DNA of 47,198 bases from an uncultured Erysipelotrichaceae bacterium. GTDB lineage: Bacteria > Bacillota_I > Bacilli_A > RF39 > UBA660. Shown here piece by piece: positions 35,243-44,654 of the stretch. The translations under genes were made by a program, and so were the position numbers. The notes under the pieces were generated by a model. The model was given only the letters and a program-made list of their open reading frames with translations, was not told the origin of the DNA and did no database searches. Within the stretch, counting starts at the first letter, position 1. Every line of letters begins with the position of its first letter. The stretch lies in the NCBI GenBank assembly GCA_902791625.1, contig CADAWN010000005.1, positions 1-47,198 of the forward strand, given 5' to 3'.

Positions 35243-35267
35243 AAAAAGATAGTTTTACTACCTTTTT
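35243..35267 (-). terminator. Terminator of the large sigma-factor gene
   Basis: Minus-strand 11-bp stem AAAAAGGTAGT/ACTATCTTTTT with one G-U pair and a three-base loop, then ATTTAT. It overlaps the stop codon. Confidence 0.75.
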
Positions 35268-37767
35268 AATCATCAATAAAAGTTTTTCTCAATATTTTAT
35301 TACTTCTATTCCTATCTAACTTATTTTGTATTTTTTTTAAAATCGTTATTAATACTTTTTTCTTTAATTCTTCAGGTAGATAACCATTAATTATAGGATG
35401 CCTTAAATCAGAACCATAGTATTCTCTTAATAAAACTTTATCATTATCATTAAGTTCTGAAATAGCTTGTGTTATTTCAGCATCTACATATCCATCATTT
35501 TCAAAATAAGTATATATATTATCTTTAGATCTTCTATCTACATATTTACCTTTGATAAAGCAATATATATCAACACTTTTTCCTTGTTGTATTAGTCTTC
35601 TATATTTTTCTAGACGAACCTTTATTTTATTAAATATTCTAGTTCTTTCATATCTATCCATATCTTTGAAATCAACTTTATCTTTAGGATTTTCATTATA
35701 ATCTTCCCCATACCATTTCTTTAAAAATACTATTTCTTCATCATCTAAAGATTCAATAATTGCAAGTATTGGTATTTTATCTTCTTCTTTTTCTATACAG
35801 AAGTATTCATATAAATTATTTCGAGTAACAGTATTTTTTTTACCTATATTATCTACTCTTGCAAATGATTTCTTTATCTCAAATAAACCTTTTTTTACTT
35901 TTTCTATAATTAATGCAATTTGTTCTTTTTCATACATAGTTATATTAGTTACATTACGTAATTCACCTGTATAAATATCATAAAACTTATTTAGTATTAG
36001 TCTTTCAAAAGGTTGTAGAATATCTATTTGTTTTTCTACATCATCTTTTTCATGTATATCATCTATTTTATAAATATTTCGAGGTAACACTGTTTCTCTT
36101 AATCTTTTTGATTTTACCCTTCTATTTATTTCATATAAAAGTCTTGGATAAATATTTTCTAGTAATATTTCTATCATATTATTTGAAGGTTTCTTAAGTT
36201 CAGCTTTTACAATATCCATTCCAAAACACTCATTAATGACAATTTTATCTCTATCAGATAAAGAACTATAAGCATTATAAAGAATATCTTTATCAGTAGT
36301 TCTTAACAAGATTATAGCATCTTTTAATGTAGCAACTTGTGGTTTTACTACTTCTTTTGTTTTAGGAACATTAAGATTATTAAAATTATGATCATAATTT
36401 TCTTTATTTCTTTTAATTTTTCTCATAGCTTTAAGTTCTAGTTGTCTTACTCTTTCTCTTGTTAATTTTTTATCTTTTAAACCAATTCTATAAAGAATAA
36501 CCGCTATTTCATCTAGTGTATGTTCTTCTTGATCATAAATTCCTGTTCTAAGTAACATTATCATTTTCTCAACATCTGATAATCCTTCAAACAATACATC
36601 TAAATTACCTTTATCACTATTAATAATTATTTCTTCAGGTATAACATCTTGAGAATCAGCAATAAAATCTCCTAATTCCGAACTATCCCTATCACTTGTT
36701 AATATTTTAGTATGTAAACTTATTGTTTTACTTATATTATTCTCATATTCATTTATTTTTCCATAACTAAGTCCTGTTTGTTTCTTTATTTCTTCAACAC
36801 TTGGTTCTCTGCCTAATTTTCCTTCTAATTCTTTTTTATTTTTATTATATTTTGACATTTTTTCTTGAACATGTACAGGTACTCTTATAGTATTACTATT
36901 ATCATGTATTTCTCTTCTTATTCTTTGATATATCCATGGTTTAGCATATGTTGTAAACCTTGCTTGATCAGGATCATAATCTTCTAGTGCTCTAAAAAGA
37001 CCATCATTACCCGCAGAAATTAAATCAAGAAGTGTTAAAGAAGAAGATTGAGAATATAATTTTTTAGCAACAGACACAACTAAACGTAAGTTAGACTCAA
37101 TTATTTTATTTTTAACTTTTTTATCATGAGTTTCACGATATAATTTAGTTAATCTATATTCCTCTTCTGGAGTTAAAAGAGGAATTCTACCTATTTCATT
37201 TAAATATGATCTAAGAGCATCACTAGTTAAAGCAGGATTATTAAGTAATTCTTCATTATTTAATTCTTCCTCTGATACATCTTCTATATCAGAATACACC
37301 TCAATTAAACTATTGTTATTAGTATCATAAATATCTAAAATATCCGCTGCTTTTTCATTTAATAATTCATATTTTTGTTCTTTAGTTAATTCTTTAGAAA
37401 GAGAAATACTTTTAAGACATTTCTCAAATTGTTCTGAACTTTTTAAAATTTTATTACAATTATCACCATTTGCCTCTATATTACAACTAGTAAGAAAGAT
37501 AGATAATTTATTTAGTGATTCTATACATTTATTTAAAGTACTTAAATCAAAGTTCTCTTCTATATAGTTTTCTATATCTATAAAACTACCAGTTTCAACT
37601 ATATTTTCGTTTACCATCTTATAAAGAATTTTATATACTCTTTTCTTATTTTCTTCATTAGTTTTTCTAGGATCAATACATCGATTAAATATTTTATCAA
37701 AAGTATCATCACTAATATTTAAAAAAGAAAAATCATGTTTAACTTCTTCCATAAAATCTCTATTCAT
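35266..37767 (-). CDS. Very large sigma-70 family RNA polymerase sigma factor with C-terminal repeat extension
   Basis: The 833 residues have an unusual N-terminal region (1-175). Region 1.2 (TSDALRSYLNEIGRIPLLTPEEEYRL, about 181-206) follows. Region 2 is at about 218-297 (NKIIESNLRLVVSVAKKL, LLDLISAGNDGLFRALEDYD, FTTYAKPWIYQRIRREIHDN). Region 3 is at about 298-375 and a recognisable region 4 at about 396-453 (LSDVEKMIMLLRTGIYDQ...LTRERVRQLELKAMRKIK). About 380 further residues look like four degenerate copies of region 4: LSDRDKIVINECFGMD (503), LQPFERLILNKFYD (584), LDDEEIVFLKKWYGEDY (674) and LNDNDKVLLREYYGSD (772). Each has a Lys-rich helix after it. Region 2.3-2.4 departs from RpoD, so it is probably not the primary sigma factor. 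Own promoter and terminator. Confidence 0.88.
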   Translation of the reverse strand: MNRDFMEEVKHDFSFLNISDDTFDKIFNRCIDPRKTNEENKKRVYKILYKMVNENIVETGSFIDIENYIEENFDLSTLNKCIESLNKLSIFLTSCNIEANGDNCNKILKSSEQFEKCLKSISLSKELTKEQKYELLNEKAADILDIYDTNNNSLIEVYSDIEDVSEEELNNEELLNNPALTSDALRSYLNEIGRIPLLTPEEEYRLTKLYRETHDKKVKNKIIESNLRLVVSVAKKLYSQSSSLTLLDLISAGNDGLFRALEDYDPDQARFTTYAKPWIYQRIRREIHDNSNTIRVPVHVQEKMSKYNKNKKELEGKLGREPSVEEIKKQTGLSYGKINEYENNISKTISLHTKILTSDRDSSELGDFIADSQDVIPEEIIINSDKGNLDVLFEGLSDVEKMIMLLRTGIYDQEEHTLDEIAVILYRIGLKDKKLTRERVRQLELKAMRKIKRNKENYDHNFNNLNVPKTKEVVKPQVATLKDAIILLRTTDKDILYNAYSSLSDRDKIVINECFGMDIVKAELKKPSNNMIEILLENIYPRLLYEINRRVKSKRLRETVLPRNIYKIDDIHEKDDVEKQIDILQPFERLILNKFYDIYTGELRNVTNITMYEKEQIALIIEKVKKGLFEIKKSFARVDNIGKKNTVTRNNLYEYFCIEKEEDKIPILAIIESLDDEEIVFLKKWYGEDYNENPKDKVDFKDMDRYERTRIFNKIKVRLEKYRRLIQQGKSVDIYCFIKGKYVDRRSKDNIYTYFENDGYVDAEITQAISELNDNDKVLLREYYGSDLRHPIINGYLPEELKKKVLITILKKIQNKLDRNRSNKILRKTFIDD

Positions 37768-42895: not shown

Positions 42896-43606
42896 TTATT
42901 TCTTTATTGGTAAAGAATAAGAATTTGAATTACTACTATATTTATCACCATAATAATTTGGAATTGTACCTTGTATTATTTTTAGTGTGATAGGATAACT
43001 ATTTTTTATTTTATATTTAAATTCCATCATAGGAAGTTTAATACTCTCATTTATTTCTACATTAATATTAACTTCTAGATATGCACTATTATATCCATAG
43101 TTCTTGATATTTGTTGATATATAAGTATATACATTACCTATAAAAGATAATTTTATTGGTACTTTTGTATCTGTTCCAATTAAACTATTATCATAAAAAT
43201 CATCTCTTAACTCAAATAAAACACCCTTCTTTAGTTTTATAAAATTATAACCATTAAATTTAGAATAATATTTAATATCATTAATCTTAGCATCTTCTAA
43301 ATTCTTTAAACTCTCCTCTATTTTCTTAGTAATCCTTTCAAGCACTTTATTAACTTCAACTGTATCAAAATCAATTATTTCTATTTCATTATTACTATTT
43401 CTACTTATTTTAAAGATGTTATTAGTATAAATATTCTCACTATCAACTATTTCTTTTACTAAATTAGAAATAAAGTGTTTAGTTTCAGAAATAGAATATT
43501 TTTTTAATTTTTTTTTATTATCGTTTTTAAATTTTATTGCAAATGAAAAAGAGATTATAAAACTCAAGAATAATGTAACAAGAAAAAATAATAATCTTTT
43601 TATCAT
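42896..43606 (-). CDS. yunB: Sporulation protein YunB
   Basis: The 236 residues have one N-terminal membrane helix (about 4-24) and a long outer domain. The YunB-type ending is visible: the strand YLEVNINVEINESIKLPMM, then KNSYPITLKIIQGTIPNYYG, which matches the family's PL-x-x-x-x-x-G-x-(V/I)PN-Y-Y-G. The internal VLFELRDDF and SFIGNVYTYISTN also fit. YunB is a mother-cell sporulation protein in Bacillus, of unknown biochemistry. It overlaps ylmC by ATGA with TGA stop. Placement behind sigG and ylmC supports the assignment. Confidence 0.8.
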   Translation of the reverse strand: MIKRLLFFLVTLFLSFIISFSFAIKFKNDNKKKLKKYSISETKHFISNLVKEIVDSENIYTNNIFKISRNSNNEIEIIDFDTVEVNKVLERITKKIEESLKNLEDAKINDIKYYSKFNGYNFIKLKKGVLFELRDDFYDNSLIGTDTKVPIKLSFIGNVYTYISTNIKNYGYNSAYLEVNINVEINESIKLPMMEFKYKIKNSYPITLKIIQGTIPNYYGDKYSSNSNSYSLPIKK

Positions 43607-43833
43607 TTAATATTTACTAGTATTACATCTTCTCCTATTTTTTCTATTTCTTCCCATCTTACTTCCATATCTCTATCTTTATTTAAAAACTTAAACATAT
43701 TAGTTTTAGATTCTATTATAAAAGAATTAATATTACCACTTTTATAATCAATATTAACATCTACTATATTACCTATATTTTTACCATCACTAGTATTTAC
43801 TAAATTTTTATTTTGTAATTCTGATAGTCTCAT
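43603..43833 (-). CDS. ylmC: YlmC/YmxH-family sporulation protein (PRC-barrel)
   Basis: The 76 residues fit the PRC-barrel family YlmC/YmxH: MRLSELQNKNLVNTSDGKNI, GNIVDVNIDYKSGNINSFII, then VRWEEIEKIGEDVILVNI. In B. subtilis ylmC lies close downstream of sigG, as here. The role is unknown but linked to sporulation. An AGGTGA site precedes the ATG. Confidence 0.88.
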   Translation of the reverse strand: MRLSELQNKNLVNTSDGKNIGNIVDVNIDYKSGNINSFIIESKTNMFKFLNKDRDMEVRWEEIEKIGEDVILVNIK

Positions 43834-43877
43834 TTTATCACCTAAATAATTATATTAAAAAAAGTACTATTCTATTA

Positions 43878-44654
43878 CTAACGCAATACTTTTTTAAGTC
43901 TTTTTATTGCTCCTTGTTCAAGTCTTGATACTTGTGCTTGACTAATCATAAGTTCATTAGCTACTTCTGTTTGAGTTTTACCTATTACAAACCTTTCATC
44001 TAAAATAAACTGTTCTCTTTCACTTAATTCATTTATTGCTTCATCAACAGAAAGTCTTAATTCCATGTCTTTACTATTAGTCTTTTTATCTTCTATTTGA
44101 TCACATATATATATTGTATCTCCTCCATCTGAATAAATTGCTTCATACATACTAACAGGATCTTTTAAAGACTCAAGTGCGAGTACTACATCATAACTTG
44201 ATACATCTAAGTATTTAGCTATTTCTTCATAACTAGGTACTTTACCAGTAGTTTTTAAACATTCTTCTTGAAATTTTAGACTTTTATACGCAATATCTTT
44301 TAATGATCTACTAATACGAAGAGATGTATTATCTCTTAAATATCTTTTTATTTCTCCTTCAATCATAGGAACTGCATAAGTAGAAAACTTAACTTCATAA
44401 CTTAAATCAAAATTATCAATTGCTTTTATTAAACCAATACATCCTATTTGAAATAAATCATCCATATTATCTGAACGATTAATATACTTTTTTAAAATAG
44501 AAAGTACTAATTTTAAATTACCTTCAATAATTAAGTCTCTTGCATATTCATCACCTAATTTTAGTTTTTTAAACAACTCTACCATTTCTTCATTAGTTAA
44601 AACTATTATATCTTTAGTATTAATTCCTGTAATTTCAACTTTATTTTTTGCCAT
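43878..44654 (-). CDS. sigG: RNA polymerase sporulation-specific sigma factor G
   Basis: Sigma G directs late forespore genes such as small acid-soluble proteins and germination receptors. The 258 residues align along their length with B. subtilis SigG: MAKNKVEITGINTKDI, NGNLKLVL-like IIEGNLKLVLSILKKYINR, region 2 DLFQIGCIGLIKAIDNFDLS and VKFSTYAVPMIEGEIKRYLR. Also present are LRISRSLKDIAYKSL, DPVSMYEAIYSDGGDTIY, and region 4 KTQTEVANELMISQAQVSRL. The N-terminal match fixes the start. Its GAGGAG ribosome site is buried in the hairpin at 44655-44684. Confidence 0.95.
   Translation of the reverse strand: MAKNKVEITGINTKDIIVLTNEEMVELFKKLKLGDEYARDLIIEGNLKLVLSILKKYINRSDNMDDLFQIGCIGLIKAIDNFDLSYEVKFSTYAVPMIEGEIKRYLRDNTSLRISRSLKDIAYKSLKFQEECLKTTGKVPSYEEIAKYLDVSSYDVVLALESLKDPVSMYEAIYSDGGDTIYICDQIEDKKTNSKDMELRLSVDEAINELSEREQFILDERFVIGKTQTEVANELMISQAQVSRLEQGAIKRLKKVLR

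Follow-up and report, generated by a model that had tools for sequence, protein, structure and literature searches.

The question raised by the 47,198-nucleotide stretch of DNA analysed here (the window; contig CADAWN010000005.1 of an uncultured Erysipelotrichaceae bacterium) concerns an 833-residue sigma factor with about 380 residues beyond its conserved core: what these residues are, and what they might do. In the usual view, a sigma factor reads its promoters with a single region 2 and a single region 4. An earlier inspection of the window without database searches (the sequence-only reading) had proposed that the extension holds four degenerate copies of region 4, duplicated in tandem in a layout not known from any described sigma factor. 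It had suggested contacts with several -35-like elements, binding to another part of the polymerase, or a fused regulator as possible roles. Features of the gene are listed in Table 1.

Table 1. Features of the giant sigma factor gene in the window (positions are those of the whole window).
Feature	Position	Strand	Evidence
Sigma-70 factor gene with C-terminal module array, 833 aa	35266..37767	-	ORF, Pfam, NCBIfam
N-terminal region, residues 1-182, in region 1.1 position	37222..37767	-	Alignment of 54 N-termini
Sigma-70 core, residues 183-455, regions 1.2, 2, 3 and true region 4	36403..37221	-	Pfam, phmmer
Module R1, residues ~479-556, region-4-derived	36100..36333	-	HMM, AlphaFold2
Module R2, residues ~562-640, the most degenerate of the four; ortholog of R2 in sister species	35848..36084	-	HMM, AlphaFold2
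Module R3, residues ~648-726	35590..35826	-	HMM, profile search, AlphaFold2
Module R4, residues ~747-833, nearest to family consensus	35269..35529	-	HMM, profile search, AlphaFold2

The open reading frame was intact and began with ATG. Pfam models for sigma-70 regions 1.2 (residues 183-212, 43.8 bits), 2 (223-291, 47.9 bits), 3 (302-379, 46.1 bits), and 4 (393-452, 24.3 bits) matched in this order, all above their gathering scores, region 4 barely so. The protein thus belongs to the sigma-70 family, and the complete core that the sequence-only reading had seen ending near residue 453 was confirmed. The core aligned to SigA structures (phmmer, E about 1e-45), and the -35 reading motif TRERVRQLE was intact at residues 436-444 of the true region 4. 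Scores of the protein for the NCBIfam RpoD equivalogs were below the cut-offs (PRK09210, 196 vs 572 bits; TIGR02393, 181 vs 354 bits). Nine sigma region-2 genes were found in the genome, including one for a separate, ordinary 366-aa SigA. The product of the window gene is therefore an alternative sigma-70 factor; it belongs to a lineage-specific family of "giant" sigma factors. Its N-terminal region resembled a domain of about 190 aa common to the giant sigma factors of the family (54 N-termini, alignment by inspection), which found no match, and hence no name, in a Pfam search. YunB, a protein of sporulation, and a sigma factor of the sporulation type are encoded close to the locus (42896-44654), which makes the host a probable spore former; RF39, a GTDB order, consists of uncultured Bacilli bearing spore genes (PMC10868615).

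Residues 479-833 consist of four modules of about 75-90 aa each, in which the segments recognized by the sequence-only reading start exactly at residues 503, 584, 674, and 772. The motif that it had given for them (L-x-D-x-(D/E)-K-x-x-L-x-x-x-Y-G-x-D) was strictly matched by R1 (LSDRDKIVINECFGMD) and R4 (LNDNDKVLLREYYGSD) and nearly so by R3 (LDDEEIVFLKKWYGED), and did not hold for R2 (LQPFERLILNKFYDIY), which is without YG. The aromatic N-x-Y motif was found before R3 (NLYEYF, residue 651) and R4 (NIYTYF, residue 750), where it had been noticed earlier, and also, in degenerate form, before R2 (NIYKID, residue 564). With an HMM built without any repeat of the window protein, R1-R4 scored 17.3, 11.6, 26.6, and 40.5 bits, as compared to 11.1 bits for the highest-scoring of 2000 shuffled versions of the extension, which places the internal repeat above background. 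When same-genus sequences were excluded as well, R4 alone remained above the shuffles (20.3 bits) and R3 fell below them (6.5 bits); the scores of R1 and R2 lean mainly on same-genus homologs, those of R3 and R4 less. R2 and R3 are degenerate, with 20-30% identity to other repeats. No other Pfam domain in the extension scored above its curated cut-off.

Descent of the modules from region 4 was supported by profile searches, by hhalign, by a PDB profile search, and by Pfam searches of relatives. A profile seeded with 17 repeats, and with no true region 4 among them, matched region 4 of ordinary SigA proteins (362-383 aa) and of 230-aa sigma factors outside the seed (E 1e-5 to 1e-4). When 90 repeats were compared with SigA region 4, hhalign gave a probability of 94.5% (P=7.5e-8) over a match that spanned the 4.1 helices, vs 0.2% in a control comparison with sigma regions 2-3. 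SigA was also the best match of the repeats in the PDB profile search (E=9.4e-5), in which sigma factors made up most of the top matches. Pfam Sigma70_r4 matched a 955-aa, array-only relative with 111.7 bits, summed over its repeats, and 29 of 69 single repeats at E below 1; window R4 alone gave no match to this model. By the family profile, R1-R4 are homologous to region 4 in sequence, and the 4.1 portion is their best-conserved part. The resemblance to Pfam Sigma70_r4 and r4_2 lies in the 4.1 helices with L-x-x-x-E-x-x-x-L-x-x-R-Y-G and in significant profile matches. In contrast to these domains, the modules have a long helix in place of the helix-turn-helix (HTH), an extra N-terminal IYEYF helix, and no -35 contact motif. 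Indeed, the -35 recognition motif TRERxRQ was kept in 0 of 189 repeats tested, and the residue equivalent to R554 was usually E (half of repeats), which argues against contacts with several -35-like elements in the form originally suggested.

For R4 alone, with 69 homologous modules as input, AlphaFold2 predicted helices at positions 7-12, 18-26, 30-40, and 55-87 (pLDDT 93.8), including a single 33-residue helix where region 4 has its HTH. The same helix pattern was predicted four times for residues 456-833 (30 multi-module rows as input; mean pLDDT 83.5, pTM 0.42), in a model that was confident for the modules, uncertain for their arrangement, and of low confidence for the linkers. According to these models, each module would keep the two region-4.1 helices, with one long helix replacing the HTH. 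In Foldseek searches, sigma factors filled the top ten for the four-module model and recurred among the matches of a single module, although each match had E above 1 and was not individually significant; the check for an unrelated fold thus returned mostly sigma factors. Taken together, a sigma core followed by four region-4-derived modules is, with high confidence, the anatomy and ancestry of this gene.

Used as a single query against genome contigs, the window protein found no match. Module profiles matched 88 of 145 family genomes at E 1e-3, a number to which some matches to true region 4 contribute, and a consensus-like profile matched 62 of 386 genomes of the window's family at E 1e-15. 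At E 1e-6, in samples of 296 class-level and 392 phylum-level genomes, the module profiles had no match outside this family. The carriers with named records were MAGs assigned to uncultured Bacilli, Tenericutes, or Erysipelotrichaceae; most came from rabbit gut ("Lapin" isolate names), and further MAGs from rumen-type and sheep-ileum samples. One module-bearing sigma gene (L120) was found in a bin labelled Methanobrevibacter, probably as a result of bin contamination. The layout, which recurs across one bacterial family, had been called undescribed, and a search of the open-access literature, in which absence is no proof, indeed brought up no sigma factor in which region-4 modules are arrayed in tandem.

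Relatives of the window protein differed widely in architecture. Sigma cores in the family carry one to eight modules and reach 1717 aa; the protein of this length in L040 (1578-6731) has eight modules, and its long C-terminal half is TPR-like by eye, with no Pfam TPR match. In many relatives one module is combined with a terminal sigma4-like domain, and many giants end in a terminal sigma4-like HTH domain, its recognition helix without the -35 motif (L048, 1635-4478; L077, 57-2426; C-terminus in L141), whereas the window protein has none. Array-only proteins (1864, 1568, 1548, 1303, and 955 aa) contain up to about 20 modules. In two genomes (L100, L073), genes for arrays follow immediately after sigma genes, as in an operon-like trio (L100, 233-13456, plus strand) of a 949-aa sigma factor and array-only proteins of 1864 aa (about 20 modules, gene overlapping the sigma gene by 14 bp) and 1568 aa (about 18 modules). 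In the other genome, an array gene follows a 644-aa sigma gene after 17 bp. The 1548-aa array-only protein (L141, 3563-8209, plus strand), the gene of which is flanked by trmD and a gene of the Sir2 family, has 13 near-identical 85-aa modules with a 255-bp period, which differ mostly within a short stretch where the long helix begins. Single modules occurred at the N-terminus of calcineurin-like phosphoesterases (L093, 2428-3729; L095, 2491-3834; L102, 2618-3847; L137, 826-2226), and a gene just after a giant sigma gene (L119, 6762-8537) encodes TPR repeats with a region-4-like module.

Sigma genes of the family are often arranged in tandem, as pairs or in larger groups. Tandem clusters with two to four such genes (L067, 2540-9001; L043; L065; L122) suggest repeated local duplication of sigma factors. 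A second, unrelated type of HTH array was seen in the same family, in a 768-aa protein with many Myb/GcrA-like HTH repeats of about 50 aa (L058, 3157-5463, minus strand), the gene of which adjoins that of a 372-aa sigma factor.

The homolog search for the same extension yielded, besides these family relatives with modules on sigma cores, orthologs from two sister species of the same genus with two modules and 34% identity to the window protein. Their neighbours are conserved, the same 290-aa and 230-aa genes following, and module number thus varies among species of one genus. R2 is common to the window protein and the two-module orthologs, and R4 is nearest to modules of another giant sigma factor (1717 aa) of a sister species, which suggests that modules pass between sigma paralogs. 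The proposed duplication in tandem was seen in other arrays and was not the simple history of the window gene. A true tandem repeat at the DNA level was found in L062 (6.7 copies of 264 bp); no such long tandem repeat is present in the window gene, and a recent DNA-level tandem duplication inside it was rejected. In relatives, modules have demonstrably been gained and exchanged. A phage or mobile origin was likewise rejected. No module was found in viral contigs or phage records, the window gene has tRNA-Arg, RNA-modification, and sporulation genes as its neighbours, and in other places array genes adjoin housekeeping genes such as those for a class-I tRNA synthetase, trmD, and RNase Y.

Within a young array, the modules hardly differ from one another outside the first part of the long helix. 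The differing columns coincided across eight arrays (0 of 5000 permutations), and likewise when eleven arrays were used. Columns 51, 52, 56, and 57 were fixed from arrays L113 and L101; in the nine arrays outside this choice they differed in 65% of pairs, vs 22% elsewhere (P=5e-5). On minimum spanning trees of the validation arrays, pN/pS was 1.81 at the four fixed columns and 0.39 elsewhere (Fisher P=2.7e-5), a pattern that points to purifying selection on the remainder of the module. At the hot columns, pN exceeded pS only marginally relative to neutrality (pooled P about 0.03, without correction for transition bias), so that relaxed constraint could also explain their variation. Column 49 was variable too, and the spacing of columns 49, 52, and 56 fits one helix face, although the helical moment test gave a P value no lower than about 0.06. 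Residues at the hot columns were mainly N, K, S, Y, T, R, and Q, and conserved Lys/Arg occurred close by at columns 61, 63, and 64. Overall, the modules were near neutral, with a mean net charge of -0.04 (n=207).

The modules of the window protein are old and divergent, and hypervariability is therefore extended to them by homology from the young arrays of relatives. Their residues at columns 49, 51, 52, 56, and 57 are N-I-E-E-N in R1, Y-K-E-A-L in R2, K-M-D-T-R in R3, and E-K-K-I-T in R4, with several acidic residues at variable positions in R1-R3. In Escherichia coli sigma70, R584 and E585 contact -35 bases (PMC2613000). One register between long helix and sigma4 places the hot columns on the E585/R588 face, and a MAFFT register places them on the first HTH helix and turn; in view of this competing register, direct mapping of the hypervariable positions onto E585/R588 was set aside. 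The conserved scaffold and few variable helix positions of the young arrays are the signature of a modular recognition array with TALE-like logic.

Several known systems share single traits with the window protein. Like the group 1/2 sigma-70 factors SigA and RpoS, it has regions 1.2, 2, 3, and 4 in order and an intact -35 motif; unlike these, it adds the family-specific N-terminus of about 190 aa and the 380-aa C-terminal array. TALE and Burkholderia TALE-like arrays (PMC4066763) also consist of near-identical, tandem helical repeats in which the differences fall on a few fixed positions, and the young arrays of relatives show the same combination of conserved scaffold and few hypervariable positions. 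However, the present modules are sigma4-derived, 75-85 rather than 33-34 residues long, part of or adjoining a sigma factor, and known from sequence alone, and they matched sigma region 4 and no TALE models. A computational screen for TALE-like repeats made no mention of sigma factors (PMC5472282). The ECF sigma factors ECF41 and ECF56 have an extra C-terminal part after the sigma core as well, but their extensions are SnoaL-type or other single domains, in contrast to the several region-4-derived modules that here follow a full group-1-like core. The sigma-70 core also matched PADLOC and NCBIfam models of MzaA. A role in MZA defence was rejected, since the MzaA match (159 bits vs a cut-off of 800) was confined to the sigma core; other MZA genes were not seen among the scanned neighbours.

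As an explanation of the whole gene, we favour, with a probability of about 0.5, an alternative sigma factor whose array is a modular recognition device that directs the holoenzyme to its targets. With regions 2-4 intact, the core would bind RNA polymerase and read -10 and -35 elements in the ordinary manner. Each module would expose a variable patch where its long helix begins, and together the modules would tether or direct the holoenzyme to chosen targets, more likely DNA around or upstream of the promoter than, alternatively, a protein partner. The four older modules of the window protein may, by homology, work like the young ones of relatives. As relatives show, arrays grow, shrink, and diversify by duplication and exchange of modules, sometimes as separate proteins encoded beside the sigma gene. 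More tentative, and somewhat doubtful, is the wider proposal that the family invented from region 4 a programmable recognition array that directs holoenzymes, or arrays alone, to long, evolvable DNA targets, with the window gene as a small, old, four-module member.

Region 4 grips the beta flap of RNA polymerase via its 4.1 helices. The modules might accordingly form a protein-protein scaffold that uses these helices to bind the flap, other sigma factors, or partners, and reads no DNA. The 4.1 part being best conserved, the loss of the -35 motif in all repeats tested, the near-neutral charge, the TPR repeats of some relatives, and the position of array-only genes after sigma genes all fit such a scaffold, as does phage T4 gp33, which clamps the flap tip at the region 4 site without DNA binding of its own, although it is a single phage domain structurally unrelated to region 4 (PMC7892883). 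However, each polymerase has a single flap, which makes some 20 flap-binding modules hard to explain, and hypervariable polar positions along one stretch of helix in otherwise conserved modules suit the reading of varied sites better than the binding of one conserved partner. We regard a scaffold as rather unlikely. For the window protein itself, protein binding is a close rival to DNA reading, because its residues at the hot columns, R4 perhaps excepted, form no obvious DNA-reading set.

An extension folded back onto the core so as to regulate the sigma factor by autoinhibition or sensing, the fused regulator of the sequence-only reading, has precedents in the C-terminal extensions of ECF sigma factors (ECF41, PMC3426412; review, PMC8999054) and would suit the many relatives with one module and a terminal sigma4-like domain. 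We consider it improbable, since module number varies freely from 1 to 8 in sigma proteins, modules without a sigma core or on phosphoesterases misfit a fixed intramolecular lock, and the low pTM and low-confidence linkers of the four-module model speak against it. Still less probable is an array of modules duplicated by recombination that drift without a function of their own. The degeneracy of R2 and R3 and the different module numbers in same-genus species would agree with such drift, but reading frames stay open over thousands of bases in many genomes, pN/pS is about 0.4 outside the hot columns of young modules, and the modules are predicted to be well folded.

Under the favoured reading of a modular recognition device, region-4 arrays may form a new class of proteins for modular recognition and, if they diversify at fixed helix positions, they would represent a new way of extending the recognition of promoters or other targets. 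Their carriers, with small gut genomes of about 1-1.7 Mb, put heavy investment into sigma factors.
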